A DNA stretch of 64,000 nt from NCBI GenBank assembly GCA_003134785.1, contig PLCN01000020.1:124001-188000 (forward strand), written 5' to 3'. The translations under genes and the position numbers were made by a program. The notes below the pieces were generated by a model. That model searched no databases and was not told where the DNA came from. It worked only from the letters and a program-made list of their open reading frames with translations. The stretch comes from Spartobacteria bacterium (GTDB lineage Bacteria; Verrucomicrobiota; Verrucomicrobiia; Chthoniobacterales; UBA10450). This document shows positions 4,459 through 62,120 of the stretch, in pieces. Every line of letters starts with the position of its first letter. Positions within the stretch are counted from its first letter, which is position 1.

Positions 4459-4461
4459 AAG

Positions 4462-5554: not shown

Positions 5555-7153
5555 TCACGTCCGGCTAACCAGCGTGTCCCGCTTGAACACCCGATCCGAG
5601 AGTCCCGGATAATCGAGAGTGAAGTGCAACCCGCGGCTTTCCTTCCGGCTCAGCGCGGAATCCACGATGAGCGCGGCGACCGTCGCAAGATTACGAAGCT
5701 CGAGTAGGTCCACCGAGATTTTGAAGTTCCAATAAAACTCCCGGATTTCGCGTTGCAGATTGCGCAGCCGAGCGCTGGCTCGCTGGAGCCGCTTGTCCGT
5801 GCGCACGATGCCGACGTAATCCCACATCAGCCGCCGGATCTCGTCCCAATTGTGATAGATGACCACGAGTTCATCCACATTTTGCACATCGCCCGCCTCC
5901 CATTCCGGCAACGAGATTGCCCGAACAGCGTGCGAAGTAGGCTGCTCACGCACCAGCGCGTCGACCGCACGATGCGCCAGGACCAATCCCTCCAGGAGCG
6001 AATTGCTCGCCAGCCGATTCGCGCCGTGCAAGCCGGTACAAGCGACCTCGCCGATCGCATACAGCCCCGGCATGGTCGTCGCGCCATTCAAGTCAGTCTT
6101 GATGCCGCCACATTGATAATGCGCTGCCGGGACCACGGGGATCGGTTGCTTGGCCATATCAATCCCCCAGCGCAAACAAGTTTCGTAGATGTGCGGAAAA
6201 CGTTCCTGCAAAAATTCCAGGGAGCGGTGCGTGATGTCGAGAAAGACGCATGAGGCGCCAGAGCGTTTCATCTCGGCGTCGATAGCGCGCGCGACGATGT
6301 CGCGGGGAGCGAGCGACCGCTGCGGATGATAACGGCTCATGAAATCTTCGCCCCGGCTGTTGCGTAAAATTCCGCCTTCACCGCGCACCGCCTCGGACAC
6401 GAGAAACGATTTTGCCTGGGGATGAAAAAGACAGGTCGGATGGAATTGGATGAACTCCATGTTTGCGATAACTGCACCCGCGCGCCAGGCCATGGCCACG
6501 CCGTCGCCGGTCGCGATGTCGGGATTCGTCGTATAAAGATAAACTTTCCCGCAACCGCCCGTGGCCAGGACCAGCCGGTCGGTCCGGATCGTTTCCACTT
6601 CGCCGGAGCGCTCATCGAGCACGTAGACCCCGAGGCAGCGGTCCTCCGTGGCGAAGCCAAGTTTTCCAGCCGTAATCAAATCGACGGCCATGTGATGCTC
6701 GAGTAACTCCACCCGGGGCGAGCGATCGAGTTCTCGCAGCAAAGTCTTTTCGATCTCCAGCCCGGTCACATCCTGGACATGCAAAACGCGTCGCTTCGAA
6801 TGGCCACCCTCCCGGCCGAGATCTGGCTCGCGATGGCCGGAGACTTCGCGGTCGTCGAAATGCAATCCGAGTCCGACCAACTCGCGAACACGCGTCGGGC
6901 CTTCCATCACGATCGTCCGCACAGCGGTCTCGTCGCACAGGCCCGCGCCGGCTTCGAGCGTGTCCTGCACATGAAGCTCAAAGGAATCTTCGTCGCTCGT
7001 CACGCACGCGATCCCGCCCTGCGCCCAGGCCGTATTCGAATCCGCCCCTTTGCGTTTCGTGACCACAGCAACGGATCCGTGCTTCGCCGCTTTCAAAGCG
7101 AACGTCAGCCCGGCAATGCCGCTGCCGATCACGACGAAATCGTATTCCTTCAT
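5555..7153 (-). CDS. nadB: L-aspartate oxidase
   Basis: 532 residues, normal length. It oxidises L-aspartate to iminoaspartate with FAD, the first step of de novo NAD synthesis. The N-terminal FAD fold has VIGSGIAGLTFAL (about 7-19), followed by SNTAWAQGGIACV. Substrate and flavin-domain motifs are present: FIQFHPTC, SLAPRDIVARAID, and the second FAD-binding region GLYAIGEVACTGLHGANRLASN shortened here to its core GEVACTG. The C-terminal helical domain runs from about 400. The start ATG overlaps the panC stop by one base (TGATG), so the two are translationally coupled. nadA and nadC are not in the window. Confidence 0.96.
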   Translation of the reverse strand: MKEYDFVVIGSGIAGLTFALKAAKHGSVAVVTKRKGADSNTAWAQGGIACVTSDEDSFELHVQDTLEAGAGLCDETAVRTIVMEGPTRVRELVGLGLHFDDREVSGHREPDLGREGGHSKRRVLHVQDVTGLEIEKTLLRELDRSPRVELLEHHMAVDLITAGKLGFATEDRCLGVYVLDERSGEVETIRTDRLVLATGGCGKVYLYTTNPDIATGDGVAMAWRAGAVIANMEFIQFHPTCLFHPQAKSFLVSEAVRGEGGILRNSRGEDFMSRYHPQRSLAPRDIVARAIDAEMKRSGASCVFLDITHRSLEFLQERFPHIYETCLRWGIDMAKQPIPVVPAAHYQCGGIKTDLNGATTMPGLYAIGEVACTGLHGANRLASNSLLEGLVLAHRAVDALVREQPTSHAVRAISLPEWEAGDVQNVDELVVIYHNWDEIRRLMWDYVGIVRTDKRLQRASARLRNLQREIREFYWNFKISVDLLELRNLATVAALIVDSALSRKESRGLHFTLDYPGLSDRVFKRDTLVSRT

Positions 7154-7992
7154 CAGAGCCGGATGTTATCGATCAGCCGAGTCTGTCCGAAAAAGGCCGC
7201 GACAGCGATGAGCGAATTCTCTTCCAGCGCTTCGATCGGTGCCAAAGTCTCGGCATTCACCAACTCGAGATAATCGATCCGCGCGAGCGGCGACCCATTT
7301 ATGATTTTGCGCGCAGCGTCGATGATCGCCGCCGCCGAACGTTCGCCGCCCCCGGCAAGCCGCGCCGCTTCCAGCAAAGCGGCGCGCAAGACCGGCGCCT
7401 GCTGCCGCTCGGTCGGACTCAGATATTGATTGCGCGAGCTGCACGCCAGTCCATCGGTTTCCCGCACAGTCGGAGCGCCGATGATCTCGATTCGAAAATT
7501 CAGGTCGCGCACCATCCGGCGAATGATCGCGAGCTGCTGGAAATCCTTCTCACCGAACACTGCTGCGTCCGGCGCGAGAACATGAAAGAGCTTCGCCACC
7601 ACCGTACAGACGCCGCGAAAATGTCCGGGCCGGGACTTCCCTTCCAGCGTGCTGGAAAGCGAATTCTCCTCGACGGCGACAGAGAAATCATTCGTATACA
7701 TCTCGTCCGCACTCGGCCGGAAAAGAATATCCACGCCAGCGCCGCGGCAAAGTTCCTCATCGCCCGTTTCGGGCCGCGGATATTTTTCAAAATCTCCTCC
7801 CGCAGCGAACTGAAGCGGGTTCACAAAAATGCTCACCGCGACTTCGCCCTCCTTCCCAGCCGCAGTCCGCGCGATGCGGATCAATTCGAGGTGACCTCGG
7901 TGGAGCGCGCCCATCGTCGGCACGAGAATTCTTCGCTCCGCACCGTTGCGCGCTAAAGCGATGGCGGCGGCGACGGTTTGGACAACGTGCAC
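7153..7992 (-). CDS. panC: Pantothenate synthetase
   Basis: Joins pantoate and beta-alanine using ATP, the last step of pantothenate (vitamin B5/CoA precursor) synthesis in the cytoplasm. Motifs: VPTMGALHRGHLEL (ATP-binding HxGH region), FVNPLQFAAGGDFEKYPR, PDAAVFGEKDFQQ and LACSSRNQYLSP. A GTG at 7992 gives MHVVQTVAAA, which matches the usual PanC N-terminus. An in-frame GTG at 8022 would add ten residues; neither has a good ribosome-binding site. It is the first gene of a two-gene unit with nadB, linking two cofactor pathways that both draw on aspartate-derived metabolites. Confidence 0.94.
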   Translation of the reverse strand: MHVVQTVAAAIALARNGAERRILVPTMGALHRGHLELIRIARTAAGKEGEVAVSIFVNPLQFAAGGDFEKYPRPETGDEELCRGAGVDILFRPSADEMYTNDFSVAVEENSLSSTLEGKSRPGHFRGVCTVVAKLFHVLAPDAAVFGEKDFQQLAIIRRMVRDLNFRIEIIGAPTVRETDGLACSSRNQYLSPTERQQAPVLRAALLEAARLAGGGERSAAAIIDAARKIINGSPLARIDYLELVNAETLAPIEALEENSLIAVAAFFGQTRLIDNIRL

Positions 7993-8114
7993 GGTCGCAA
8001 TAATTGCGCAGCGCGACTCCACGCGCCAGTCAATCCGACCACCGGTGTCATGTCAGCGATTTAAGCCGAAAGGTCCTGACCAGCCTCAACATTATTTACA
8101 ACGCGTAAGAAGAT

Positions 8115-8142
8115 TTGACGCCAGGGACTGGGATGATACTAA
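8115..8142 (+). promoter_or_regulatory. Possible sigma-70-type promoter
   Basis: TTGACG at 8115-8120, a 16-base spacer, then TACTAA at 8137-8142, about 110 bases upstream of the delta-60 protein gene. The match is partial and by eye only. Confidence 0.3.
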
Positions 8143-8254
8143 TCGTGCCTGCGCGACTGCTCAGCGGTGCGTCGATTAAGCCCCCGATCAACCTCCTCCT
8201 AAATTCGGATCACTCTTTCGTGACTTACTCCGCAAAAGAATCCCTTTCCTGAGG

Positions 8255-9160
8255 ATGAAAACTCCTTTGCTGATTCCTCACCCGACACAATCAATTCCCA
8301 GTGTCGCGAGATTCTTCGACCGCACGCTGATTCTCTCACTTTGCCTTGGATTAATTGGCGGACTCTTAACCTCTGCGCCCGCAGGGGCCGCGGGTCTTAC
8401 GCCAGGCACAAACTTTCGAGCTCCTTTTTTTGTCAAACCGGTCGCTCCCGAACGCGCCCTCCTCCTGCCGGACGGGAAATACCTCCTCTTTTTCGATCCC
8501 GACACCCTAACGGATCAGCCGTCTGGTGCGATCACACGATTTCTGGCCGACGGGACGCTGGACACTTCCTTCAATTTTAGTCGCATCTACAAATCGGTCG
8601 GGGCAGCCACTCCAGCCGGCAATAGCAAAATCTACGTCGCCGCCACGCGCTACCTTTATGGCGCCAAAGACGCTGAGCAGATTCTCCGGCTGAACGCGGA
8701 TGGATCAATCGACTCAAGCTTCGCGCCCGCGACTGTCGGCGGGCCCGACACCTACTTGGATGTGCGGCAAATTCTCGTCCAGCCGGATGGAAAGGTTTTG
8801 GTCGTCGGCCTTTTTCTTACGTTCGCAGGAAACGATCCCCGCGAAGGCATTGTTCGACTCCTGGCCGATGGCACGGTGGATTCGAGTTTTGTTCCTGTCA
8901 GCTTCCCCGATTATGGGCTGCTTTATTCGGCGGCGCTCCAACCTGATGGAAAGGTTTTGATCGGCGGAGCCTTCGACGCTGTGGATGGCACGGCCCCTCC
9001 TGGAGTTGCCCGGCTCAACGACAACGGTTCCCTAGATTCGACCTTCCACGCGGCCGGCTTTACCCGCACCCCTACCAGTCCGGTTCGTTCGATCGTCGTT
9101 CAAAGCGATGGCAAGATGTCCTCTCGGGTCGTTTCCAATTTGGAACTGGATCCGCGATGA
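8255..9160 (+). CDS. Delta-60 repeat surface protein, N-terminal fragment before first frameshift
   Basis: Starts MKTPLLIPHPTQ with a signal peptide or membrane segment around residues 24-46 (LILSLCLGLIGGLL...AGA). Delta-60 repeats follow: units of about 50-60 residues with ADGTLDTSF, QPDGKVLVVG and ARLNDNGSLDSTF signatures, expected to form a beta-propeller. The frame fails after VQSDGKM: one missing base near 9116 would give DGKxVLSGRFQFGTGSA and join the next fragment without a break. The next fragment begins at once in frame -1. Either the gene is decaying or the sequence has an indel error. The protein would be exported and probably surface exposed. Confidence 0.75.
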   Translation: MKTPLLIPHPTQSIPSVARFFDRTLILSLCLGLIGGLLTSAPAGAAGLTPGTNFRAPFFVKPVAPERALLLPDGKYLLFFDPDTLTDQPSGAITRFLADGTLDTSFNFSRIYKSVGAATPAGNSKIYVAATRYLYGAKDAEQILRLNADGSIDSSFAPATVGGPDTYLDVRQILVQPDGKVLVVGLFLTFAGNDPREGIVRLLADGTVDSSFVPVSFPDYGLLYSAALQPDGKVLIGGAFDAVDGTAPPGVARLNDNGSLDSTFHAAGFTRTPTSPVRSIVVQSDGKMSSRVVSNLELDPR

Positions 9161-47200: not shown

Positions 47201-49936
47201 ATGAAAGGGTTTCCTTCTCCATTAATCCTCTTCGTTTGCGCTTTGCGCGGAGCGCTCTTTCTCGGCGCTGGGCTGCTGTTTGTGCAACCGTGCGCCGGTG
47301 GTTCTGGCGCTTTTGAGAATACAGGCAGCCTCGCTACGCGTCGATATTATCATACGGCGACCTTACTGCCCAACGGGAACGTGCTAGTCGCCGACGGAGA
47401 AGAATTCCCCGGGAGCTATCCCGCCCCCGCCGTCTATCTCGCGAGTGCGGAACTGTACGATTCGGCGAACGGGACCTGGACGGCGACCGGCAGTCTGGGC
47501 TCCGCACGCTATGGTCACAGGGCGACGCTGCTGCCTAACGGCAAGGTGCTCGTCGCAGGCGGTTATAACGGCAGCGTTCTTGCAAGCGCGGAACTGTACG
47601 ATCCGTCGAGCGGGACCTGGAGTGCGACCGGCAGCCTCGCCACCGCACGCTATTTTTATGCGGCGATTTTACTGTCCGACGGCAAGGTGCTCGTCGCAGG
47701 TGGTTTCAATGGCGGCACGCCCACCGTCCTGGCGAGCGCGGAACTGTACGATCCGTCGAGCGGGACCTGGAGTGCCACTGGCAGCCTCGCCACCGCACGC
47801 TATGGTCCTACAGTGACGTTGCTACCCAACGGCTGGGTGCTGGTCGCAGGAGGAACTAACAACAGCAGTAGCCATATCGCGAGTGCGGAACTGTACGATC
47901 CGGGGAAACGCACTTGGCTTGCCGCTGGCAGCCTCGCCATCGCACGCGGTGGTCACACCGCAACATTGCTGCCCAACGGCAAGGTGCTCGTCGCAGGAGG
48001 AAGTGACAGCAGCTTCACCACTCTCGCAACCGCGGAACTGTACGATCCGGCGAGCGGGACCTGGAGTGCCACTGGCAGCCTTGCCACTGCACGCGGTGAT
48101 CACACGGCGACGTTGCTGCCCAACGGCAAGGTGCTCGTCGCAGGAGGAACTAACAAGAGCAGTAGCAATATCGCGAGCGCGGAACTGTACGACCCGGCGA
48201 GCGGGACGTGGGCTCCCACCGGTAGTCTCAACACCGCACGCGTTGAACACACCGCGACGCTGCTGTCCAACGGCAACGTGCTCGCCGCAGGCGGGACTAA
48301 CAGCGGCGGCTCTCTCGCGAGTGCAGAGCTGTACGTTCCGGGCTCAGCACCAGTGATTACGAGTCCGCTCACGGCGAGTAGCTTGGTGGGTCAGCAATTC
48401 ACGTATCAGTTCGAGGCGACCGGTGCGACCTCCCTTAGCGCGTCCAATCTTCCGTCCGGGCTTACCTTCAGTACCGCGCTCAGCGCAATCGTCGGCAGTC
48501 CGACCGCAGCCGGAGTATTTCAAGTGGGACTGGCCGCTTCGAATGCCAATGGCACTAACACTGCAACTCTTACCATTACGGTGTCGCCCCCTCCATCTTC
48601 GGGACTCGTCATCCTGAGCAGCTCGAGCGCGACCGGCAGAACTGGCCAACCCTTCAATCTTCAAATCATAGCGACGGGCAAAGGCACTGCGCAGACCATA
48701 ACCGCGAGCGCCCTGCCAACGGGATTGACGATTGATGCCTTGACAGGGCTCATCAGCGGAACTTCAACCTCCGATACCAGTACGGCGGTAACCGTAACGG
48801 TAACCGACGGGAACCTAACGACCAGCTCTATCCTCGAGTTAACGTTCTCATCCGATCTGGGACGGCCGGTCATCGTCAGTCCCAGTTCCACCACGGTCGC
48901 AGCTGGCCAGGTTTTTAGTTATACGATCGACGCTCCGGCTAACTCCGATCCTTCCGATCCCACTGTGTTTACACTTATCGGGACACTTCCAGCCGGGCTA
49001 ACCTTTGATTCCCAAACCGGGACGATTTCGGGGACGTTCACCGGTAATAACCTGCGGCGTGGCCCATCGCCAAACCTATCTGGAGGCATCGTGACCAACG
49101 TCCAGCTTTTCGCCACCAATTCCCACGGTACCTCTACCTTGCCGCTGGTCTTCTTCCTCGCTCCCGCGGGAACAGTGAATATCTCCACGCGACTGGCTAT
49201 CGGCACCGGCGACAATGTCCTCATTGCCGGGTTCATCATCACGGGCAACGCACCCAAGAAAGTAATGATCCGGGCGCTTGGACCTTCCTTGCCCGTGCCG
49301 GGCGCGGTCCAGGACACAACTTTGGAATTGCACGATGCGGATGTGACGCTGGGCTCGAACGATAATTGGAGAGAGACCCAGGAAAACGAGATCACCGCCG
49401 CCGGCATCGCCCCATCGGACGACCGTGAGTCGGCCATCATCGCGATCCTCAATCCAGGGAATTATAGCGCCGTCGTGCGGGGTAAGAACGACGCCACGGG
49501 CATCGCCGTGGTGGAAGTATATGACCTGGGCACAGCCAGTCTGGATAACTCCAGCAATTCGAAACTCGCAAACATCGCCACGCGCGGACCTGTTCTCGTT
49601 GGCGACAACGTCATGATCGGCGGCTTCATCGTTTCCAAGCAGGACTCGAAAGTCGTCGTCTGCGCCACCGGACCATCACTCTCGGCTTCTGGAATAGCCG
49701 GAGCGCTGCAAGATCCGACCCTCGCACTGAAAGACGCAAACGGCTTGACTCTTATCGATAACGACGACTGGCAACAGGGGCAGCCAGCTGACATTGAACA
49801 GACAGGTCTCGCTCCGACCGATCCCCGCGAGTCCGCCCTGATCGCGACACTCGCGCCCGGGAATTACACCGCGATTGTGAGCGGGAAGGAGAATGCCACC
49901 GGCGTGGCTTTGGTCGCGGTTTATGAATTGCAATGA
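47201..49936 (+). CDS. Secreted kelch-propeller protein with Ig-like domains and tandem NISTR/GGFI module
   Basis: 911 residues with a signal peptide (MKGFPSPLILFVCALRGALFLGAG, cleaved near PCAGG). Seven kelch-like repeats of about 48 residues (TGSLATARxxHTATLLPNG, KVLVAGG, ASAELYDPASGTW) span about 45-385 and should close one seven-bladed propeller. Two He_PIG-type Ig domains follow (FTYQFEATGATSLSASNLPS, VGSPTAAGVFQVG). Next come a shared segment with FTLIGTLPAGLTFDSQTGTI, and GGIVTNVQLFATNSHGTST. Two C-terminal modules close the protein (VNISTRLAIGTGDNVLIAGF; ANIATRGPVLVGDNVMIGGF), ending VAVYELQ. It is exported; a ligand-binding or adhesin role is a guess. It starts the 47-64 kb surface locus. 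Confidence 0.9.
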   Translation: MKGFPSPLILFVCALRGALFLGAGLLFVQPCAGGSGAFENTGSLATRRYYHTATLLPNGNVLVADGEEFPGSYPAPAVYLASAELYDSANGTWTATGSLGSARYGHRATLLPNGKVLVAGGYNGSVLASAELYDPSSGTWSATGSLATARYFYAAILLSDGKVLVAGGFNGGTPTVLASAELYDPSSGTWSATGSLATARYGPTVTLLPNGWVLVAGGTNNSSSHIASAELYDPGKRTWLAAGSLAIARGGHTATLLPNGKVLVAGGSDSSFTTLATAELYDPASGTWSATGSLATARGDHTATLLPNGKVLVAGGTNKSSSNIASAELYDPASGTWAPTGSLNTARVEHTATLLSNGNVLAAGGTNSGGSLASAELYVPGSAPVITSPLTASSLVGQQFTYQFEATGATSLSASNLPSGLTFSTALSAIVGSPTAAGVFQVGLAASNANGTNTATLTITVSPPPSSGLVILSSSSATGRTGQPFNLQIIATGKGTAQTITASALPTGLTIDALTGLISGTSTSDTSTAVTVTVTDGNLTTSSILELTFSSDLGRPVIVSPSSTTVAAGQVFSYTIDAPANSDPSDPTVFTLIGTLPAGLTFDSQTGTISGTFTGNNLRRGPSPNLSGGIVTNVQLFATNSHGTSTLPLVFFLAPAGTVNISTRLAIGTGDNVLIAGFIITGNAPKKVMIRALGPSLPVPGAVQDTTLELHDADVTLGSNDNWRETQENEITAAGIAPSDDRESAIIAILNPGNYSAVVRGKNDATGIAVVEVYDLGTASLDNSSNSKLANIATRGPVLVGDNVMIGGFIVSKQDSKVVVCATGPSLSASGIAGALQDPTLALKDANGLTLIDNDDWQQGQPADIEQTGLAPTDPRESALIATLAPGNYTAIVSGKENATGVALVAVYELQ

Positions 49937-50057: not shown

Positions 50058-53000
50058 ATGACAATTCAATTATCCTCGTTGCCCGTGAGGAGAAAGGCTT
50101 TGGTTGCAATCGTCCTGGCTGGGAATCTGATTATTCGGATTGCCGCGGCTGAGACTGCGGAGAACGCTTCGCTGCTAAGCAAGGAAAACGTTGTGGACTC
50201 GGCGAGCAGCAGTGGCTCGTGGGCGCCGGCCACCGTCGGTCAGCCGCTCGCAGTTCGTGACCGGTTGCGCACGGGAGAAGATAGCCGGGCGGCGGTGCGC
50301 ATGACCGACCTGAGCGTCTTGCGAATCGATGAACTGACGACGATCGAGATCACACCGCCTGCGACCACCAGCGACAAGCCGTCCCTGAACGTCAAGGAGG
50401 GCACAACGTATTTTTTCAGCCGGGAAAAATCGCGCGAGATGCGGGTGGAAACTCCGGCGGCCAACGGAGCCATGCGCGGCACGGAGTTCGTCGTCGCGGT
50501 CGCGGCCAATGGAAGCACTACCGTGACCATGCTGGATGGCGAGGTGGAACTCTCCAATGCGCAGGGCTCGCTCGTTGTGACCAGCGGCGAGCAGGCCAAG
50601 GTGGATGTGGGCGGAACGCCAAGGAAAACCGCGGTGCTGGAGGCGATCAATTCCGTCCAATGGTGCCTCTATTATCCCGGGGTTCTTGATTTGAAGGAAC
50701 TCGGTTACTCCCGCAATCCGAACGCATCGATCTCCGCTTATAACGAAGGCGATTTGCTGGCGGCGCTGGCTGCCTACGGACATCAAAGCCGTTCCGGATC
50801 AAACGCGGATAAGGTTTATCACGCAGGGTTGCTGCTGGCGGTCGGTCAGGTCGACAAGGCAAACCGTCTGCTCAATGCCGCCGGCCGTGGAACCCCGGGC
50901 CGGCAAGCTTTGTTGACCTTGATTGCGGCGGTCACGTTGAAACCGCGGCCGGATTCTACTGCGCCGCAAACCGCGAGCGATTGGATCGCGGAATCGTATT
51001 ACCTGCAATCGCAAGCCAATCTTCCGGGCGCGTTGGAAGCAGCAAAACATGCCACCGAGGTCGATCCGGAATTTGGCTTCGCCTGGACGCGAGTGGCGGA
51101 ATTGCAGTTCAGTTTCGGCCGCATACCACAAGCGAAAGCCGCCTTGGAAAAAGGCGTGCAGCTTTCTCCGCGCAATCCGGCGGCGCATGCGCTCCTCGGT
51201 TTCTTGTTCAGCGCGGAAAATAAGATCAACCAGGCCAAAGGCGCGTTCGAGAATGCGATGGCGATCGATGGCGCCTTGGGCAACGCGTGGCTCGGCCGCG
51301 GGCTCTGCCTCATCCGCCAGGGCAAGGATGACGATGGCCGCCGCGATCTCCAGGTAGCCGCGGCGCTTGAACCGAACCGGGCTTTCTTTCATAGCTATCT
51401 CGGCAAAGCCTTCAGCAACGATGGCAACGAGCCAAAGGCGCGGCTGGAATTGGAACGCGCCAAGACGCTGGACCCGAAAGATCCTACTCCCTGGATTTAT
51501 TCGGCGATCGAAAACAAACAGGACAGCCGGATCAATGAAGCCGTGCGCGACCTGGAGAAGTCCCAGGAACTAAACGATAACCGGCGCGTTTACCGCTCGC
51601 AGTTTCTGCTCGACCAGGATCGGGCGGTGCGTAGCGCCAACCTCGCCGCCATCTATCAGGCTGACGGAATGGAAGACGTGAGCGTGCGCGAAGCGGCCCG
51701 CGGCGTGGATTCGGATTACGCGACGGCTTCTTCGCATTTGTTCCTGGCCAACAGCTACAACGCGCTCCGCGATCCGAATCGGATCAACCTTCGTTACGAG
51801 ACGCCTTGGTTCAATGAACTGTTACTCGCGAATCTGCTCTCTCCCGTCGGCGGCGGGCCCTTGTCGCAATATGTCTCCGAGCAGGAATACTCAAAGCTAT
51901 TCGAAGCCGACCGGCTCGGAATCAGTTCTACCACGACTTACTTCAGCACCGGCGAACTGCGCGAAACCGCTTCGCAATACGGAACCTTCGGAAACGTCAG
52001 TTACTCGCTCGATTCGGAATTTCAGTACGACAACGGCCGCCGGCCTAACAACGAGATCACGCGCTCCGAGTCCTACGGCCAGGTGAAATTGCAGCTTACC
52101 CCGCAGGACACGATTTTCTTGCAAACGAAATACCAGGACGTTCGCCAGGGCGACTTGGTCCAATATTACGATCAGCGGGACGCCGCGCCTGGGTTGCATT
52201 TCCGCGAGCTACAACAACCGGCCATCCTTCTTCTTGGTTATCACCACGAATGGGCGCCCGGCATTCACACTCTTCTCCTGGCCGGCCGGCTCTCCGACGA
52301 GATATTTTTCTCCGACCTCAACACAGATGCTGATATCGCGGCGTTTAACCAGACAGGCATCCTGCCCAATGTAAGCCGATCGTTGGTCCTGCTTCATGAC
52401 AGCGCGGGGCACGTCACTAACGCGTTCGGTTTCCCGCTGCTCGAGCCGCTCGACCTGCAATATCATAGCACCTTCACGACCTACACCGGTGAGCTGAACC
52501 AAATCTGGGAACAAGATAACAATACCCTCATTTTCGGCGCGCGTTTTCAGTCGGGTGAATTTCACACGAGTGATCGCCTGGATAATGCCGTTGCACCCAT
52601 ACCCCCCTTCTTCTTTAGCGTCCCGCCGGCCGCGCACGATTTCACTACCTCGCTGGAGCGACAGAGTGTTTATATCTATGACACCTGGCGGCCGTTTCGC
52701 ACCCTGTCTCTGACGGCCGGCCTTAGCTATGATCACCTGGAGTTTCCCACTGATTACCGCAACTCACCGATCGTTAGCGGCGAGGATTCCCGGGATCGGC
52801 TTTCGCCGAAGGTCGGCGTGATTTGGAATCCTATCGGAAATCTATTTGTGCGCGGCGCTTATACTCAATCTTTGGGCGGAGTGAGCTTCGATCAGAGTGT
52901 CGGACTCGAACCGAACCAGGTCGCAGGATTCAACCAGGTCTTTCGCAGCATCATTTCCGAATCGGTGGTGGGCTCCGTGGCGGCGCCGACCTACGATACC

Positions 53001-53630
53001 GCCGGCATCCTCATCGAAGACAGGTTTCCCACGGGAACATATGTCGGTATCCAAGTCACCGATATGCAGTCGGACGTGGATAGCACTGTGGGCACGTTCG
53101 ACGCGTTTCTCACCCCGCCTCCGCCCCCACTCTTCCTCAATCCGCCCATCGTCTCTTCGTCTACTCCGCAGAAGTTGCGTTACGATGAACAGGATCTTCT
53201 GGTGACGGTGAATCAATTAGTAGGCGATGAATGGTCGTTCGGCGGCAGTTATCAGCTCTCCTATGCAAACCTCGAGACGATCTTTCCAGCAATTCCGACC
53301 GCCATTTTGCCTGGCGCGGATCACCGTGAGAAAGCAACTCTGCATCAAGGACAGCTCTTCGCGCTCTACAATCATCGCTCCGGATTCTTCGCGCGGATCG
53401 AAGGCTATTGGGCGCGGCAGAGTAACGTCGGTTACTCGCCTGACATTCCGGGCGACGATATCTTTCAATTGAACGCCTACGTCGGTTATCGGTTCCGGCG
53501 GAATTTCGGCGACATCACTCTCGGCTTCCTCGACATAACGGACCAGGATTACAAATTGAATCCGCTCAATTACTACAACGAGCTGCCCCGCGAGAGGACC
53601 TTAGTCGCCCGCGTCCGTCTTAACTTCTGA
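50058..53630 (+). CDS. FecR-TPR-outer-membrane beta-barrel protein
   Basis: 1190 residues. A signal peptide (about 1-31) is followed by a FecR domain (about 50-190: LRTGEDSRAAVRMTDLSVLR, MRGTEFVVAV, TMLDGEVELSN, VVTSGEQAKV). TPR repeats cover about 220-540 (ALEAAKHATEVDPEFGFAWT, ALEKGVQLSPRNPAAHALLG, AFENAMAIDGALGNAWLGRG). From about 600 alternating hydrophobic strands with Tyr/Trp/Phe ends form a TonB-receptor-like barrel (YQDVRQGDLVQYYDQRD, WRPFRTLSLTAGLSYDHLEF, LFVRGAYTQSLGGVSFDQSV). It ends in Phe (RVRLNF), as outer-membrane barrels do. There is no plug domain or TonB box. It is coupled to the next gene (1-base overlap). It may sense, recruit or export something at the outer membrane; role unknown. 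Confidence 0.85.
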   Translation: MTIQLSSLPVRRKALVAIVLAGNLIIRIAAAETAENASLLSKENVVDSASSSGSWAPATVGQPLAVRDRLRTGEDSRAAVRMTDLSVLRIDELTTIEITPPATTSDKPSLNVKEGTTYFFSREKSREMRVETPAANGAMRGTEFVVAVAANGSTTVTMLDGEVELSNAQGSLVVTSGEQAKVDVGGTPRKTAVLEAINSVQWCLYYPGVLDLKELGYSRNPNASISAYNEGDLLAALAAYGHQSRSGSNADKVYHAGLLLAVGQVDKANRLLNAAGRGTPGRQALLTLIAAVTLKPRPDSTAPQTASDWIAESYYLQSQANLPGALEAAKHATEVDPEFGFAWTRVAELQFSFGRIPQAKAALEKGVQLSPRNPAAHALLGFLFSAENKINQAKGAFENAMAIDGALGNAWLGRGLCLIRQGKDDDGRRDLQVAAALEPNRAFFHSYLGKAFSNDGNEPKARLELERAKTLDPKDPTPWIYSAIENKQDSRINEAVRDLEKSQELNDNRRVYRSQFLLDQDRAVRSANLAAIYQADGMEDVSVREAARGVDSDYATASSHLFLANSYNALRDPNRINLRYETPWFNELLLANLLSPVGGGPLSQYVSEQEYSKLFEADRLGISSTTTYFSTGELRETASQYGTFGNVSYSLDSEFQYDNGRRPNNEITRSESYGQVKLQLTPQDTIFLQTKYQDVRQGDLVQYYDQRDAAPGLHFRELQQPAILLLGYHHEWAPGIHTLLLAGRLSDEIFFSDLNTDADIAAFNQTGILPNVSRSLVLLHDSAGHVTNAFGFPLLEPLDLQYHSTFTTYTGELNQIWEQDNNTLIFGARFQSGEFHTSDRLDNAVAPIPPFFFSVPPAAHDFTTSLERQSVYIYDTWRPFRTLSLTAGLSYDHLEFPTDYRNSPIVSGEDSRDRLSPKVGVIWNPIGNLFVRGAYTQSLGGVSFDQSVGLEPNQVAGFNQVFRSIISESVVGSVAAPTYDTAGILIEDRFPTGTYVGIQVTDMQSDVDSTVGTFDAFLTPPPPPLFLNPPIVSSSTPQKLRYDEQDLLVTVNQLVGDEWSFGGSYQLSYANLETIFPAIPTAILPGADHREKATLHQGQLFALYNHRSGFFARIEGYWARQSNVGYSPDIPGDDIFQLNAYVGYRFRRNFGDITLGFLDITDQDYKLNPLNYYNELPRERTLVARVRLNF

Positions 53631-55633
53631 TGCAACTGCGCGAGCTCAAGCGTCTCGCTCGAGCCCTCAGCATTGTCGCGGGATGTCTCCTGGCGATCGG
53701 AGCAGGGTTTGCGTGTCTGAATTACTCCTTCGCCGAGCCCCTGACCCGGACAAGCTATGACCTGCCATTTGTCTGGCGCGCAAATCTGGACACGCACGAA
53801 ATCGTCCTGGTTTACCTCGACGAAGAATCAGCGAAACAATTGCAGCAGCCGATCGATGACATTTGGAATCGCTCCCTGCACGTGCCGCTCCTTGAACGTC
53901 TGGCGAAGGATGGAGCGCGCCTCGTTGTCTACGACATCATTTTCGATCAGCCATCGCCTGACGCCGCGAGGGACACAGCTTTTGCAAGTGCGTTGCAAAG
54001 TTCAGGTAAAGTCATTTTAGGCGGTGGGCTCGAGATCGTGCAACCGATGGGTGGAGTGAAGCAGGAGCGAATTCTTGCGCCCCTCAAAACCTTTCGCAAG
54101 GCCGCCGCCGGTTGGGGGATCATGGTCTTCAGGCCGGTCGATGCCGACTATGCCGTGCGGCAACTGTTCACCGGCACGAGCGACATTCCGACCGGGACTT
54201 GGAAGGCAGCCGAGGTCCTCGGCGCACCAGCTACTCGTGAACCGCGGGAAGCGTCCGTGCAACGCTGGATCAACTACTATGGACCAAAGAACACCTTCTC
54301 CTCCATTAACCTGGCGCAAGCCTTGGATCCGCAAGGTGTGCCGCCCGGTTTTTTTAAAGACAAGATCGTTCTGGTCGGGGGCCGCTCGGCGGTAGGTTAT
54401 CTTGCCGCGGGTCGAGATGAATTTGGAACGCCCTATTCCCGAGGCAGTCATCAATTTACTTCAGGCCTCGAAATTCACGCCACTATTCTCTTGAACTTGG
54501 TCCGCGGCGAATGGCTCACCCGAATTTCCAATCAAAAGGAATCCGCCATTCTCATCCTCGTCGGCTTGATCGCTGGTGCGCTCGCGGCTTTGCGCCCGTC
54601 CTTCGCGGTGGTTTCGGCGCTTATCGTCTCCTTTGCCATCGCGTGCCTGGCCTTCTTGTTTGTCTGGCATCGGCAGGTCTGGTTCGATTGGATGGTTCCC
54701 GCGGCAATCCAGATGCCGCTAGGTCTCGCCTGGTCGGTCGGTTCGCAGTACCTTCTCGAATCACGCCGCCGAAAAGAGTTGCGCCGCGCCTTCGGGTTCT
54801 ATTTGTCGCCGGAAATGGCGGACAAGATCGCCGACTCTGATTTCGACCTAAAGCCTGGCGGCAAAGTAGTTGAGGTCACAGTTATCTTTACCGACCTCGA
54901 GAGCTTTACCTCGATCACAGAGAACCTCGACCCGGAGGAGGTAACCGAAATTCTTACCTCCTATTTCGGACAAACGACCAAGTGCATTCTCGAGAACAAG
55001 GGAACAATCATTAAGTATATCGGCGATGCCGTCTTCGCGGCCTGGGGCGCGCCCATTGACGATCCGCAGCATGCGATGCGCGCCGTGGAAACCGCCTGTA
55101 ACTTGCGCTGCCTTTCGGAACTGGTAGTCCACGGGAAGACCTTGCGCACTCGGGTAGGCATCCACAGCGGAAAGGTGCTCGCGGGAAATTTAGGTTCCAA
55201 CTATCGCTTCGATTACACGATGATCGGCGACGCCGTTAACTTCGCCTCGCGCCTGGAGTCTCTGAACAAATACCTTAGCACGCAGGTGCTCATCTCCGAT
55301 GCCGTGCGGCAGCAGTTGGGCGATGGCTTCATCACGCGACAGCTCGGGGAATTTCGCGTCGCAGGCAAGACAAATAGCGTCATCATTCATGAACTGCTAT
55401 GCCGCTGCGGCGCCGAGTCGGGCGAGAAACAATGGATCGACGTTTTCGAGCAAGGTTTGAGCGTCTTCCGCGCGGGTGAGTTCAAAGCCAGCCGCGATTA
55501 CATGACTCGGACCCGCGAGCTGCGCGGTGGATCAGATGGCCCCTCTGAGTTCTACTTGCGAAAAATTACCGACCTGGAGGCGAACGGCCACCATGGAGAT
55601 TGGACCGGTATCGTCCAGTTATCGGATAAGTAA
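53630..55633 (+). CDS. CHASE2-domain class III adenylate/guanylate cyclase
   Basis: 667 residues. One N-terminal membrane helix (about 14-32), a periplasmic CHASE2 sensor domain (about 35-300: VLVYLDEESAKQLQQPIDDI, RLVVYDIIFDQPSPDAARDT, VILGGGL), three helices (about 305-375) and a cytoplasmic cyclase domain (about 410-590). The cyclase has both metal Asp residues (IFTDLESFTSI and YIGDAVFAAWG), the Lys in IIKYIGD, Thr in FDYTMIGDAVN, and NFASRLESL, so it is probably active and makes cAMP; guanylate use cannot be excluded. A C-terminal helical tail follows. Its ATG overlaps the stop of the FecR-TPR-barrel gene, suggesting a shared sensing system across the envelope. Confidence 0.92.
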   Translation: MQLRELKRLARALSIVAGCLLAIGAGFACLNYSFAEPLTRTSYDLPFVWRANLDTHEIVLVYLDEESAKQLQQPIDDIWNRSLHVPLLERLAKDGARLVVYDIIFDQPSPDAARDTAFASALQSSGKVILGGGLEIVQPMGGVKQERILAPLKTFRKAAAGWGIMVFRPVDADYAVRQLFTGTSDIPTGTWKAAEVLGAPATREPREASVQRWINYYGPKNTFSSINLAQALDPQGVPPGFFKDKIVLVGGRSAVGYLAAGRDEFGTPYSRGSHQFTSGLEIHATILLNLVRGEWLTRISNQKESAILILVGLIAGALAALRPSFAVVSALIVSFAIACLAFLFVWHRQVWFDWMVPAAIQMPLGLAWSVGSQYLLESRRRKELRRAFGFYLSPEMADKIADSDFDLKPGGKVVEVTVIFTDLESFTSITENLDPEEVTEILTSYFGQTTKCILENKGTIIKYIGDAVFAAWGAPIDDPQHAMRAVETACNLRCLSELVVHGKTLRTRVGIHSGKVLAGNLGSNYRFDYTMIGDAVNFASRLESLNKYLSTQVLISDAVRQQLGDGFITRQLGEFRVAGKTNSVIIHELLCRCGAESGEKQWIDVFEQGLSVFRAGEFKASRDYMTRTRELRGGSDGPSEFYLRKITDLEANGHHGDWTGIVQLSDK

Positions 55634-55679: not shown

Positions 55680-58118
55680 ATGATCCTGCCGCTTCATTTG
55701 CCTGCCATAATCAGATCGGGCCGCGCGCGGCTCGCGCTCCTGCTGGTTGCTGGCGCGGCCCTGGTCCTTGCCTTGGAACCGAGCGCACGCGCGGACGGCA
55801 CGGACGTTTCGCTTCTCTCCGTCACGAAGACGGAACTCTACCTGCAAAACAGTTCGGCTAATCCCGCCCTCCAGGCGAATCCTTTTACCTTCGATACCGC
55901 AGCTAATCCCACTGGTGCAAACAGGATCGTCAGCGCCCAATTCCTACCGCCGGGAGGGACCCTTGAGACCATGACGAAAGGCCGGGCGAATTTTTCCTTC
56001 GACGGGGGCAATTTTGCCACGATGGCGGCGTTGAATGCCGCCTTTCCGAATGGCACCTACAATTTCGCCCTTCAAACCTCCACTCCGCCGACAGCCTTTA
56101 ACGACACGATCTCGATCACGGGCGATACCTATCCTAATATACCCAAGATCCTGAACGGGACCTGGTCTTCAGGAGCGCTCCAGATCGACGCGACCCAAAG
56201 CTATTCTATCACTTGGAACGACGTTTCTCCTACGAGCTCGACCCAGATGGTGTTCGAAATCGCCGACGCTTCCGGAGCGATCGTCTTTAGCCAGGTGGTG
56301 GCGCCCGATCCCAGTGGCTTCAACATCAATCGAACCATATCGGCGAACACGCTTCAAGTAGGTGCCTACTACACGGCAAACCTTACCTTCCAGCGCAGGC
56401 AAGTTACCCAAGTAAACGGTTCCTTCGCCAAGGTGGCTATCTACGCCACCACCACCACCTTTAAGATTGCCACGATTGGGGCCATTCCGACCATCACCGG
56501 TCCTTCGAATCCGATGGGAACAGTCGGGCAAATGTTCATTTACCAGATCATCGCCAGCAACCACCCCTTCAGCTACGGGACGAGTGGTTCCTTGCCTCCA
56601 GGCCTAACCCTCGATAGTTCCCTGGGTATCATTAGCGGCGTTCCGACAGCGACCAGTGCAACCCAGATCTCGCTCAATGCCACCAACATCAATGGAACGG
56701 GAACCAAGGCTAACTTCGTGCCGGCGATCCAGGCCGCGCCCAGGGCCGGGCCGATCATTATCAGCAGCACCTGCGCCCAGTATTATGCCGGGCAGCCTTT
56801 CAGTTTTCAGGTCGCCACGAAAGGAGCTACTTCCGCGGCCAGGATAACGGCTACGGGCCTTCCGGCTGGGTTGAGCCTCGATCCGGTCACCGGAGTTATC
56901 TCGGGGACCACTGCTTCAGTTGGAAGTTTCCCAGTCAATCTCACGGTCACGGACGGAAGCTTTACCGTGGCAGGCTTCCTCCAGCTTACCTTTACGGCCG
57001 ACCCGGCTTATCCGGTAATCACGAACGCAGACAAGGTTACTGTCCCGCGAGGCCAGACATTTAGCTATACGATCGCTACCCCCGGCGCCTCGGATCCGGC
57101 CGACCCTCCAACCTTTACCATCATTGGGAACTTGCCGCCGGGATTGGGATTTGATCCGGCAACGGGTACCATTTCGGGAACCTATAGCGGCCCCTTGCAA
57201 AAGAGCATGAGCTCGAACGATAGCGGGGGCGCCCCCCCTGTCGTAAAGGAACTGTCCGGCGGCGCCTTACTGGGCAGCATCCAACTCTTTAGCACAAACT
57301 CCCATGGCACTTCCACCTTTCAGCTTCTCTTCCTGGCGCCACCTTCCGGAGCGGTCAATATCGCGACCCGCCTGTTTGTGGGCACGGGTGAGAATGTCCT
57401 GATTGGTGGCTTCATCGTTACAGGCAACGCACCGAAGGTAGTAATCGTTCGCGCGATTGGCCCTTCTACTGGAATTCCCGGGGCCTTGCAGGATCCAATT
57501 CTTCAGTTGCGCAATGAGCAAACCCAGGTCGTTGTCACTAATGATAACTGGCGGGATACCCAGGAGCAGCTGATCAAAGACACTACGATTCCACCGAACG
57601 ATGACCGCGAGTCTGCCATAGTCGCAGGACTCGATCCAGGTAACTACACGGCCATAGTATCCGGCAAGGACGGCGGCACTGGCATTGGACTGGTCGAAGT
57701 ATACGATCTCGGCACGGCGAGTCTCGATACTACCACTAAGGCGCAACTCGCCGAAATCTCGACTCGCGGCAATGTCCTTACGGCTGATAATGTCATCATC
57801 GGCGGCTTTATCATCTCGGGCGTTAACACCAAGGTTCTCGTCCGCGGCATTGGGCCATCGCTCGCTGCTTTCGGCATTGGCAACGCACTGCAAGATCCCA
57901 CGATAGAATTGCACGATGGAAACGGCACGACTATTGGAGCTAACGACAATTGGCGGAGCGATCAGGAACAAGCGATCATCAACACCTCAGTGCCTCCCAC
58001 CGATGATCGCGAGTCTGCGATTGTCGCAACCCTAGCTCCAGGCGCTTACACGGCGATCTTGCGCGGCAGTGGTAATACGACCGGAGTCGCCTTGGTGGAA
58101 GTTTACGCGTTGCAGTAA
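55680..58118 (+). CDS. Secreted Ig-like domain protein with tandem NISTR/GGFI module
   Basis: 812 residues with an N-terminal signal segment (LALLLVAGAALVLALEPSARA). The N-terminal 230 residues are an unrecognised beta-rich head (VSLLSVTKTELYLQNSSA, FAKVAIYATTTTFKIATIGA). Three He_PIG-type Ig domains follow (IYQIIASNHPFSYGTSG, GLTLDSSLGIISGVPTATS; FSFQVATKGATSAARITATG; FSYTIATPGASDPADPPTF). The shared GSIQLFSTNSHGTSTFQLLF segment leads to two C-terminal modules (VNIATRLFVGTGENVLIGGF; AEISTRGNVLTADNVIIGGF), ending VEVYALQ. It is exported and probably surface located. It begins 46 bases after the cyclase gene on the same strand, so it may belong to the same transcript. Function unknown. Confidence 0.88.
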   Translation: MILPLHLPAIIRSGRARLALLLVAGAALVLALEPSARADGTDVSLLSVTKTELYLQNSSANPALQANPFTFDTAANPTGANRIVSAQFLPPGGTLETMTKGRANFSFDGGNFATMAALNAAFPNGTYNFALQTSTPPTAFNDTISITGDTYPNIPKILNGTWSSGALQIDATQSYSITWNDVSPTSSTQMVFEIADASGAIVFSQVVAPDPSGFNINRTISANTLQVGAYYTANLTFQRRQVTQVNGSFAKVAIYATTTTFKIATIGAIPTITGPSNPMGTVGQMFIYQIIASNHPFSYGTSGSLPPGLTLDSSLGIISGVPTATSATQISLNATNINGTGTKANFVPAIQAAPRAGPIIISSTCAQYYAGQPFSFQVATKGATSAARITATGLPAGLSLDPVTGVISGTTASVGSFPVNLTVTDGSFTVAGFLQLTFTADPAYPVITNADKVTVPRGQTFSYTIATPGASDPADPPTFTIIGNLPPGLGFDPATGTISGTYSGPLQKSMSSNDSGGAPPVVKELSGGALLGSIQLFSTNSHGTSTFQLLFLAPPSGAVNIATRLFVGTGENVLIGGFIVTGNAPKVVIVRAIGPSTGIPGALQDPILQLRNEQTQVVVTNDNWRDTQEQLIKDTTIPPNDDRESAIVAGLDPGNYTAIVSGKDGGTGIGLVEVYDLGTASLDTTTKAQLAEISTRGNVLTADNVIIGGFIISGVNTKVLVRGIGPSLAAFGIGNALQDPTIELHDGNGTTIGANDNWRSDQEQAIINTSVPPTDDRESAIVATLAPGAYTAILRGSGNTTGVALVEVYALQ

Positions 58119-58475
58119 GAAGCCGTTGGCTACGCTGCCAAACGCAGCCGGTTTAGTCAGATGGATTTCCGAATGGTAGGAAAAGCGACGAATGGCTTCG
58201 AATGGCGGAGTCGATGGCTCTTTGAGTTAGGCTGGAGAGATCAGGTTGGCTTCTTCCGTCGTAGAACAGACTGTTCCGAAAGTTTCTTCCCGGGTTTCTT
58301 TCTGCTGGCGAATAAGCTTTACATGCCTTGGGTTCTCCCAAACAATCGCAGGCGCAATAAGTTCGTCAGGCGTCTCCAGCACAGCAACCTGCCCTCTTCC
58401 GGCCGGATAACCGGGAATATGGTAATGATTCGGACGGCTGACTGCTTGCTGTCTCATCGCGTCAATCTAATAACC
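58119..58475. other. Intergenic gap before the NHL gene
   Basis: 357 bases. The NHL reading frame is open here back to an ATG at 58161, but the residues (FRMVGKATNGFEWRSRW) show no conserved character and would hide the signal peptide. The paralogue at 63895 begins exactly at the GTG position. I see no other gene. Confidence 0.55.
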
Positions 58476-61400
58476 GTGAAAAGATTCCTTCTACCGTTAC
58501 TCCTCATCGGTTGCGCTTTAGGCGGAGCCACCACGACTCGGGCGCAATCGAATTACGAACCGTATTCCTTCACCACGCTCGCCGGGCTGGGACCGGGTAG
58601 CACTAGCGGCACCGGCAGCGCCGCGCGCTTCGATTTTCCAGATGGCGCGGCGGTGGATACCGCGGGCAATGTCTATGTGGCTGACTCGGGCAACGACATC
58701 ATCCGTAAGATCACTCCTGCTGGCGTGGTGAGTACTCTGGCTGGCCTGGCTGGCAGCTCTGGCAGCGCCGATGGCAACGGCAACGTCGCGCGCTTCTCTT
58801 TTCCCACTGGCGTGGCGGTGGATAGCGCGGGCAATGTCTATGTGGCCGACGATGGCAACAACACGATCCGCAAGATCACCCCGTGTGGCGCCGTGAGTAC
58901 TCTGGCCGGTCTGGCTGGCAGCACTGGCAGCGCTGATGGGAGCGGCAGCGCCGCGCGCTTCTCTCAACCATTCGGCGTGACGGTGGATGGCGCGGGCACT
59001 ATCTATGTGGCTGATAGGGATAACCACACGATTCGTAAAATCACCCCTGCCGGTGTAGTGAGTACATTTGCGGGTCTGGCTGGGAGCAGTGGCAGCGCCG
59101 ACGGCAACGGCAGCGCCGCGCGTTTCAATTTTCCGCTAGGTGTGGCGGTGGATAACGCGGGCAATCTCTTTGTGGCCGACACGAATAGCAGCACGGTCCG
59201 CAAGATCACCTCTTCTGGCGCCGTGAGTACATTTGCCGGTCTAGCTGGCAGCGGTGGCAGCGCCGATGGCACCGGCAATGCCGCGCGCTTCAATCAATTA
59301 TCCGGCGTAGGAGTGGATAGCGCGGGTAATGTCTATGTGGCCGACTACTTGAACCACACCATCCGCAAGATCACGCCTTCTCGCGTGGTGAGCACATTTG
59401 CCGGTTTAGCTGGCAGCGGTGGCAGCGCCGATGGCACCGGCAGCGCCGCGCGTTTCAATTTTCCATACGGCGTGGCGGTGGACGGCGCGGGCAACGCCTA
59501 TGTGGCTGACTCGGGCAACGACACCATCCGTAAGATCACGCCTTCTCGGGTAGTGAGTACTCTCGCCGGGCTAGCTGGCAGCTTTGGCAGCGCCGATGGC
59601 ACTGGCACCGTCGCGCGCTTCGGTTTTCCGGTTAGCGTGGCAGCGGATAACGCGGGCAATGCCTATGTGGCTGACTCGAGCAACCATACCATCCGTAAGA
59701 TTACACCTTCTCGCGTCGTGAGTACTCTAGCCGGCCTGGCTGGCAGCGCGGGCAGTACCAATGGGAGCGGCAGCGCCGCGCGCTTCAATAACCCATCCGG
59801 CGTGGCGGTAGATAGCGCCGGTAACGTCTATGTTGGCGACAGAGGTAACAATACGATCCGTAAGATCACCCCTGCTGGCGTAGTAAGTACTCTGGCGGGT
59901 CTGGCCGGCAGCAGTGGCAGCACGGATGGCACCGGTAACGCCGCTCGTTTCACTGAACCGCAAGGCGTGGCGGTGGATAGTGCGAGCAATGTTTATGTGA
60001 CCGACACGGACAACCACACGATCCGTAAGATCACATCTGCTGGCGCCGTGAGTACTCTTGCCGGATTAGCTGGCAGCAGTGGCAGCGCCGATGGCACTGG
60101 CAACGGCGCGCGCTTCGCTTTTCCGCAAGACGTGGCGGTTGATGGCGCCGGCAATGTCTATGTGGCCGACTCGAGTAACGACACGATCCGAAAGATCACC
60201 CCGGCTGGCGTAGTGACCACTCTGGCCGGTGTAGCTGGCAGCTTTGGCAGCGCCGATGGCATCGCGAACGATGCGCGATTCGACGGTCCAAGTGGCGTGG
60301 CAGTGGATAGCAATGGCAATGTCTACGTGGCCGAATACTTCAACAGCACGATCCGCAAGATAACCCCTGCGGGCGACGTGAGTACTCTGGCCGGTCTAAC
60401 TGGCAACACGGGCAGTGGCGATGGGATCGGCAGCGCCGCCCGCTTCCATAATCCGACCGGCGTGGCGGTGGATAACGCGGGCAATGTCTATGTGGCCGAC
60501 TACTTGAACAGCGCGATCCGCGTCGGCGTCAACGCACCACCGGTAATTACCACCGTGGGACAGCCTTTCGTTTACCAGTTAGACATCACCGGCACGACCT
60601 CTTTCGTGGTCAGCAACCTGCCGCCGGGCTTGAGCTTTAACAGCCAGCTGGCCGCCATTGTAGGAGTTCCCACCGCCGCCGGGACCTTCCAAGTGGGACT
60701 AAGCAGTATGAACTCCTCCGGCGCGACGAATAATAGCACGCTCACCATCACGGTGCAGCCCGCGCCTGGCTCCGGTCCCATCATTACCAGCAGCACGAGC
60801 GCGACGGGCAGGGTGGATCGGCTATTCAGCTTCCAGGTGGAAACAATCAACGCCAGCTCCGCCGCGCGCTTAAGCGCGAGTGGACTCCCGCCGGGTCTGT
60901 CGGCCGACCCAGTCACCGGAGTCATTTCAGGGACTGTGACCGCGGAAGGAAGTTCAGCGGTGACACTTACAGTCACGGACGGAGGTTTTACTGCGACCGC
61001 CAGTTTGCAATTGATCTTTACGGCGGATCCAGCATCGCCCGTCATCCTTAGCTCTAACACTGCATCTCTCGCGCCCGGCCAATCGTTCACTTACACGATC
61101 AACGTGGCGGCAGCCTGCGATCCTTCCGATGTAACTACTTTTACCCTTATCGGCACCCTGCCAGCAGGACTCTTCTTTGATCCCAACACCGGTACGATCT
61201 CAGGCACCTTTACTGGGCTGAGCCTGCACAGCGGAAACAGACCGGATGTCTCAGGAGGTATCGTCACCAACGTGCAGTTGTTTGCCACTAACTCGCACGG
61301 CACGTCTACGCTTCCTTTGATTTTCTTTCTGGCGCCGACTGGAGCAGTCAATATCTCAACTCGAATCGCGGTGGGTTCAGGCGATAACGTTTTGATTGGC

Positions 61401-62120
61401 GGCTTTATTATCACTGGGAACGCGCCTAAGAAGGTAGTCATCCGTGCGATAGGTCCTTCTTTGAAGGTCAATGGCGTTCCGATACCAGGAGCCATGCAAG
61501 ATCCGGTGCTGGAGCTGCATGACCCAACCGGACTGTTAGGGACGAATGACAATTGGAGAGACAGCCAGGAGAATGAAATCATCGGCACCGGTATTCCACC
61601 CACCGACGATCATGAATCGGCTATCCTGGCCTACCTCAGCCCCGGCAACTACACGGCCGTGGTCCTTGGTAAGGATGGGTCTACTGGCATCGCCGTGGTG
61701 GAAGTATACGACTTGGGGACAGTGAGCCTCGACCAATCGAGTAACGCGAAGCTCGCGCAAATCTCCACGCGCGGCACTGTCCTCACCGGTGACAATGTGA
61801 TGATCGGCGGCTTCATTGTCCAAACCAGTGCAACAAAGGTGATCGTGCGGGCTATCGGACCGTCCTTGAACGGAATTGTCCCTGGAACACTTCAAGATAC
61901 CGTCCTTGAGCTGCATGATGGCAGCGGGACAACGATCATGTCGAACGATGACTGGCGCAGCGATCAAGAGCAGCAGATCATCGATACTACCGTGCCGCCC
62001 AAGGACGATCACGAGTCTGCGATTGTCGCGACCCTAAATCCCGGCGCTTACACCGCGATCGTGCGCGGCAAGAACAATACTACCGGAGTCGCTTTGGTGG
62101 AGGTCTATACTTTGCAGTAA
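58476..62120 (+). CDS. Secreted NHL-repeat propeller protein with Ig-like domains and tandem NISTR/GGFI module
   Basis: 1214 residues from GTG 58476 (MKRFLLPLLLIGCALGGATT, a signal peptide). Twelve NHL repeats of exactly 55 residues (GVAVDSAGNVYVADSGN, TIRKITPAGV, VSTLAGLAGS, GTGSAARF) cover about 30-690 and fit two six-bladed or similar propellers. Two Ig-like domains follow (FVYQLDITGTTSFVVSNLPP; FSFQVETINASSAARLSASG), then GGIVTNVQLFATNSHGTSTL and two C-terminal modules (VNISTRIAVGSGDNVLIGGF; AQISTRGTVLTGDNVMIGGF), ending VEVYTLQ. From the Ig domains on it is closely similar to the kelch protein. It is exported; ligand unknown. A truncated paralogue begins at 63895. Confidence 0.9.
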   Translation: MKRFLLPLLLIGCALGGATTTRAQSNYEPYSFTTLAGLGPGSTSGTGSAARFDFPDGAAVDTAGNVYVADSGNDIIRKITPAGVVSTLAGLAGSSGSADGNGNVARFSFPTGVAVDSAGNVYVADDGNNTIRKITPCGAVSTLAGLAGSTGSADGSGSAARFSQPFGVTVDGAGTIYVADRDNHTIRKITPAGVVSTFAGLAGSSGSADGNGSAARFNFPLGVAVDNAGNLFVADTNSSTVRKITSSGAVSTFAGLAGSGGSADGTGNAARFNQLSGVGVDSAGNVYVADYLNHTIRKITPSRVVSTFAGLAGSGGSADGTGSAARFNFPYGVAVDGAGNAYVADSGNDTIRKITPSRVVSTLAGLAGSFGSADGTGTVARFGFPVSVAADNAGNAYVADSSNHTIRKITPSRVVSTLAGLAGSAGSTNGSGSAARFNNPSGVAVDSAGNVYVGDRGNNTIRKITPAGVVSTLAGLAGSSGSTDGTGNAARFTEPQGVAVDSASNVYVTDTDNHTIRKITSAGAVSTLAGLAGSSGSADGTGNGARFAFPQDVAVDGAGNVYVADSSNDTIRKITPAGVVTTLAGVAGSFGSADGIANDARFDGPSGVAVDSNGNVYVAEYFNSTIRKITPAGDVSTLAGLTGNTGSGDGIGSAARFHNPTGVAVDNAGNVYVADYLNSAIRVGVNAPPVITTVGQPFVYQLDITGTTSFVVSNLPPGLSFNSQLAAIVGVPTAAGTFQVGLSSMNSSGATNNSTLTITVQPAPGSGPIITSSTSATGRVDRLFSFQVETINASSAARLSASGLPPGLSADPVTGVISGTVTAEGSSAVTLTVTDGGFTATASLQLIFTADPASPVILSSNTASLAPGQSFTYTINVAAACDPSDVTTFTLIGTLPAGLFFDPNTGTISGTFTGLSLHSGNRPDVSGGIVTNVQLFATNSHGTSTLPLIFFLAPTGAVNISTRIAVGSGDNVLIGGFIITGNAPKKVVIRAIGPSLKVNGVPIPGAMQDPVLELHDPTGLLGTNDNWRDSQENEIIGTGIPPTDDHESAILAYLSPGNYTAVVLGKDGSTGIAVVEVYDLGTVSLDQSSNAKLAQISTRGTVLTGDNVMIGGFIVQTSATKVIVRAIGPSLNGIVPGTLQDTVLELHDGSGTTIMSNDDWRSDQEQQIIDTTVPPKDDHESAIVATLNPGAYTAIVRGKNNTTGVALVEVYTLQ
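58566..60530 (+). repeat. Twelve tandem 165-base coding repeats (NHL units)
   Basis: Units start GTGAGTACTCTGGCCGG (for example 58728, 58893, 59058), exactly 165 bases apart, with high nucleotide identity between neighbours. Copies 5-7 share the variant ITPSRV, pointing to recent local duplication. Confidence 0.9.

Follow-up and report, generated by a model that had tools for sequence, protein, structure and literature searches.

A putative NsrA–CyaK-type receptor–cyclase pair in a verrucomicrobial bacterium

NsrA and CyaK are known as a signaling device of the legume symbiosis. NsrA of Sinorhizobium meliloti is an outer-membrane β-barrel receptor that is required for signal perception through CyaK, and its barrel is given as residues 600–1200 (PMC7529298; PMC13001267). 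A linkage of FecR and CHASE2 domains has also been reported in Campylobacterota, in the form of FecR–TPR–CHASE2 cyclase–phosphodiesterase clusters (PMC9239204). In Burkholderia, an operon encodes a LysM–FecR protein together with a CHASE2 histidine kinase (PMC5192318).

Here we describe two overlapping genes of a Spartobacteria bacterium that probably encode a transenvelope cAMP signaling pair of the NsrA–CyaK type. The pair lies in a stretch of 64,000 nucleotides, called the window below (contig PLCN01000020.1, positions 124,001–188,000), and coordinates refer to this window unless another locus is named.

The receptor gene and an overlapping cyclase gene

The + strand carries one uninterrupted open reading frame (ORF) of 1190 codons at 50058–53630. 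The initial annotation had proposed that FecR, TPR, and β-barrel parts are joined here in a single polypeptide, and the intact ORF, the Pfam matches, and a structural model all agree with this proposal. It had not mentioned that a gene for a CHASE2 adenylate cyclase overlaps the receptor gene: the last base of the receptor's TGA stop codon is also the first base of the cyclase's ATG. The features of the pair are as follows.

50058–53630, + strand: predicted FecR–TPR–barrel outer-membrane receptor, NsrA-like, 1190 amino acids (ORF, Pfam, profile comparison, model)
50058–50150, + strand: signal peptide, residues about 1–31 (hydrophobicity; putative cleavage between ...AAA and ETAEN, read by eye)
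50259–50549, + strand: FecR domain PF04773, residues 68–164, predicted periplasmic (Pfam, E 1e-13)
50724–51767, + strand: TPR region, α-helical, residues 223–570 (Pfam and model)
51768–51914, + strand: pre-barrel segment, residues 571–619, candidate lumen gate or mini-plug (model, conservation; role inferred)
51915–53627, + strand: 22-strand TonB-receptor-type β-barrel, residues 620–1190, with a C-terminal Phe (Pfam, model, fold matches)
52875–52988, + strand: outer loop 7, 38 residues (940–977), candidate ligand or gating loop (conservation; role inferred)
53628–53632, + strand: TGATG in which the receptor stop and the cyclase start overlap, also seen in nsrA–cyaK (sequence)
53630–55633, + strand: CHASE2 adenylate cyclase, CyaK-like, inner membrane, 667 amino acids (ORF, Pfam)
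53714–54580, + strand: CHASE2 periplasmic sensor domain, cyclase residues 29–317 (Pfam)
54872–55375, + strand: class III cyclase catalytic domain, cyclase residues 415–582 (Pfam)

The sole hydrophobic segment of the receptor spans residues 13–34 and lies in the signal peptide. The hydrophobic-segment check found no inner-membrane helix, and Pfam found no anti-sigma N-terminal domain. Because the signal peptide is the only hydrophobic stretch, the FecR domain is predicted to be periplasmic, with no inner-membrane anchor provided by the receptor chain. The inner-membrane-spanning arrangement that the initial annotation gave as normal for FecR proteins therefore does not hold for this one.

Several TPR models of Pfam match the receptor between about residues 320 and 500, and the barrel model TonB_dep_Rec_b-barrel (PF00593) matches residues 725–949 with an E value of 3e-8, a match above the model's cut-off. 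The C terminus reads ...RVRLNF, and the barrel thus ends in Phe as had been noted. The Plug domain (PF07715) gives no match in the receptor even at E ≤ 1, so that the earlier statement that the barrel has no plug stands at the level of sequence.

In the cyclase, the catalytic motifs FTDLESF, IIKYIGDAVF, and GDAVNFASRLE are intact. Scans for promoters and terminators returned nothing beyond chance expectation, and no sigma-70 promoter match was obtained for the pair. We identified no phosphodiesterase gene beside the two genes.

Predicted structure and conservation of the receptor

The confidence of the AlphaFold2 model depends on the alignment supplied: mean pLDDT is 31 from the single sequence versus 85.5 with an alignment of 42 rows, and the pTM of the latter model is 0.83. 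In this model, the barrel region that had been put forward as receptor-like is recovered as 22 strands of the TonB-receptor type formed by residues 620–1189. The loops are 4–44 residues long after odd strands and 2–5 residues long after even strands. This alternation is that of an outer-membrane barrel whose N and C termini are both periplasmic. In Foldseek and VIA-align comparisons, the barrel resembles the TonB-dependent receptors FoxA, FhuA, BtuB, ChuA, and OprC (best match: Z 20.4, rmsd 3.1, 399 residues), and the TPR part resembles further TPR proteins. The exporters BcsC and PgaA are not among the fold matches listed, an absence that is not proof.

Conservation is greatest at the end of the TPR region, in the pre-barrel segment (571–619), and in outer loop 7 (940–977). 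Mean conservation is 0.72 in the pre-barrel segment, the highest among the segments compared, versus 0.54 in the barrel; outer loop 7, at 0.69, is the most conserved of the outer loops. Structural alignments to plugged receptors start at about residue 520–545, which in many cases is opposite the start of the plug. This pattern hints that part of residues 540–619 of the modeled receptor may occupy or underlie the barrel lumen.

Homologues, genomic context, and alternative explanations

When one genome was scanned per species, 44 related loci were found, and for 42 of these the record title names Verrucomicrobiota or one of its subgroups. The cultivable relatives Luteolibacter and Haloferula are represented (loci L050, L044). 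The two loci outside this group come from one assembly labeled Porticoccaceae, which may be misbinned. The family is patchy, being present in nine of 387 genomes of a phylum sample at E ≤ 1e-20, and its verrucomicrobial members were sampled in soil, groundwater, lakes, and the sea. A search for the same domain order among 36 full-length members found FecR in 35, TPR_2 in 34, and the receptor barrel in 31, and Plug in none at E ≤ 0.001.

Linkage to the cyclase could be counted at the 41 of 44 loci with enough flanking sequence. A CHASE2 cyclase gene lies directly downstream on the same strand in 29 of these; in 22 of the 29 the gap is at most 20 bp or the genes overlap, and the median gap is 9 bp. 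The cyclase is directly upstream at one further locus (L039) and within about 6 kb at three (L016, L048, and L042). No CHASE2 cyclase was found nearby at the other eight loci, which suggests that some homologues act via something else or via a distant cyclase. A separate genome collection agrees with these counts, and there even a receptor that is 28% identical adjoins a CHASE2 cyclase.

Two observations concern receptors with no adjacent cyclase. At L023, which has no cyclase, the end of the receptor gene is overlapped by an ORF resembling an ECF sigma factor (7947–8780). Large secreted-looking ORFs of 1760–1990 amino acids follow the receptors at L020 (8341–13626), L041 (7866–13824), and L042 (6951–12686).

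The TonB-receptor type of the barrel, seen both by Pfam and by fold, would also be expected of a TonB-dependent nutrient or siderophore receptor in which the FecR–TPR arm takes the place of the plug, with the cyclase as a bystander or a readout of uptake. We consider this explanation unlikely, given that Plug is missing from all 36 homologues, that no TonB box was seen by eye, that the mature N terminus leads straight into the FecR domain, and that the same genome already encodes three normal plugged receptors.

Three large secreted proteins of the Kelch/NHL/Ig type flank the pair (47201–49936, 55680–58118, and 58161–62120). They share a C-terminal half with 50%–61% identity, and similar proteins flank the pair at L009, L010, L011, and L014. 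The signaling pair might act on these flanking proteins or work together with them. They are also possible cargo if the receptor is instead a pore for export of exopolysaccharide or protein, with the cyclase regulating export; an export pore was one option raised by the initial annotation. Such a pore would resemble BcsC, PgaA, or PelB, with which the receptor shares the order of TPR followed by barrel, and the presence of large secreted β-propeller/Ig proteins here and in four close relatives would fit. However, these TPR-barrel exporters have a 16-strand barrel rather than the 22 TonB-receptor-type strands of the model, and they come with neither a FecR domain nor a cyclase. Neither a glycosyltransferase nor a polysaccharide synthase occurs among the neighbors scanned, and we regard an export pore as very unlikely.

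The genome as a whole contains four FecR-domain genes and five CHASE2 genes. CHASE2 cyclases are found within 3 kb of three of these four FecR genes, an outcome with a chance of ∼1e-6 if genes are placed at random and their general clustering is ignored. At two of the FecR–CHASE2 loci, L089 and L090, FecR and a small β-barrel protein are encoded by separate genes.

L089: cyclase 3180–5108; barrel 5186–6118 (Pfam PF10082); FecR 6151–7692
L090: cyclase 4437–6584; FecR 6677–7954; barrel-like protein 7961–8935 (read from sequence, no Pfam match)

These split sets also stand beside cyclases, so that they and the fused receptor seem to be alternative builds of a single module. At L089 (3180–9553), the FecR gene is followed by an ORF resembling a response regulator and then by a protein with a cNMP-binding domain, followed by an apparent histidine kinase. 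At L090 (4437–8935), the CHASE2 cyclase gene is divergent from the FecR and barrel-like genes. Seven cNMP-binding matches above the cut-off were found in the genome.

A sigma-factor partner was also sought beyond the window, and the nearest Sigma70_r2 match on the contig is ∼49 kb from the receptor gene. It is thus highly improbable that the receptor is a fused FecI/FecR-like cell-surface signaling protein controlling a sigma factor, for which the FecR domain and the ECF-sigma-like gene directly downstream in one homologue (L023) would speak, since it has neither an anti-sigma domain nor an inner-membrane helix and its conserved partner is a cyclase. The suggestion that the protein is a sensor gains support from this context; its partner, however, appears to be the CHASE2 adenylate cyclase rather than a sigma factor.

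Comparison with NsrA–CyaK and a proposed mechanism

Outside Verrucomicrobiota, coverage consisted of plasmids and published papers. A protein search of plasmids with the receptor matches rhizobial proteins, including a 1197-amino-acid FecR-domain protein of S. meliloti pSymB whose gene overlaps cyaK by TGATG. Pfam finds FecR, TPRs, and no Plug in this protein. We take nsrA to be the gene upstream of cyaK, following a 2018 abstract, and the pSymB gene, which lies directly upstream of cyaK, is identified as NsrA on this basis. At two rhizobial loci, a gene of the DUF5706/Pycsar-effector family stands divergently upstream of the nsrA-like gene (L053, 4172–4717; L097, 5181–5720); Pycsar-family effectors are linked to cyclic-nucleotide systems.

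Profiles of the receptor family and of the NsrA family align collinearly and at full length over 996 columns (E 1e-43). This supports common descent of the receptor and NsrA over their whole length. The barrel alone matches NsrA with a probability of 97 between profiles and of 61 against the single NsrA sequence. A control comparison of the barrel with a BtuB-like receptor gives 77 over 91 columns, and because a receptor of that kind reaches a similar score across a short stretch, the barrel by itself is no proof of special kinship with NsrA. The receptor is about 20% identical to NsrA, and the cyclase is 32% identical to CyaK. The verrucomicrobial and the NsrA-linked cyclases are not grouped in a cyclase tree, and a joint clade is not rejected (p-AU 0.10).

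For the NsrA–CyaK-type pair, we propose the following mechanism. The signal peptide would direct export of the receptor, whose C-terminal 22-strand barrel is predicted to insert in the outer membrane. A ligand would be bound by the outer loops, possibly by the conserved loop 7, and binding would shift the conserved pre-barrel segment and the periplasmic TPR/FecR arm. Co-occurrence of the genes suggests that this arm could contact the CHASE2 domain of the inner-membrane cyclase, and such a contact would, by analogy with NsrA–CyaK, change cAMP output. The cAMP may then act on cNMP-binding proteins, several of which are encoded in the genome; their tie to the pair is a proposal. Neither TonB energy nor a sigma factor would be needed.

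A more specific version can be offered only tentatively, and we think it somewhat less probable than an even chance would imply. The barrel may be a former TonB receptor that has lost its plug and its transport function and become a pure transducer. Here the pre-barrel segment would gate the lumen, and the ligand would move the FecR–TPR arm, switching the CHASE2 cyclase without TonB.

In open-licence papers we found no description of, or experiment on, such a receptor in Verrucomicrobiota, and an outer-membrane-to-cAMP receptor of the NsrA–CyaK kind is apparently undescribed in this phylum. The deep alignment and the confident model provide a basis for predicting the contact between FecR–TPR and CHASE2.

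The locus can be set beside four known arrangements. It resembles NsrA–CyaK in that a protein of ∼1200 amino acids with signal peptide, FecR, TPR, and C-terminal barrel is encoded in a TGATG overlap with a CHASE2 cyclase gene. The two differ in that the Pfam receptor-barrel model recognizes the barrel here and not that of NsrA, and in the outer loops, where 57 acidic residues are reported for NsrA (PMC7529298) versus 20 D/E in 190 loop residues here. The hosts also differ, S. meliloti in the one case and a verrucomicrobial bacterium in the other, and the ligand is therefore probably different from that of NsrA.

In the Campylobacterota clusters, separate genes are described for the FecR outer-membrane protein and for the TPR protein, and a phosphodiesterase accompanies them (PMC9239204), whereas FecR, TPR, and barrel are joined in one protein here. 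The Burkholderia operon likewise has a secreted FecR-domain protein encoded beside a CHASE2 sensor, but it signals through a histidine kinase and a response regulator and lacks an outer-membrane barrel (PMC5192318). The TonB-dependent receptors FecA, FoxA, and BtuB have a 22-strand barrel of the same fold as predicted here, with a Plug domain where this protein has a FecR–TPR arm.

The single-polypeptide architecture is thus shared with NsrA, and FecR–CHASE2 linkage is known from Campylobacterota and Burkholderia. The existence of a verrucomicrobial family with the NsrA–CyaK layout suggests a general bacterial scheme for signaling from the outer membrane to cAMP, parallel to the TonB/FecR/sigma-factor route.
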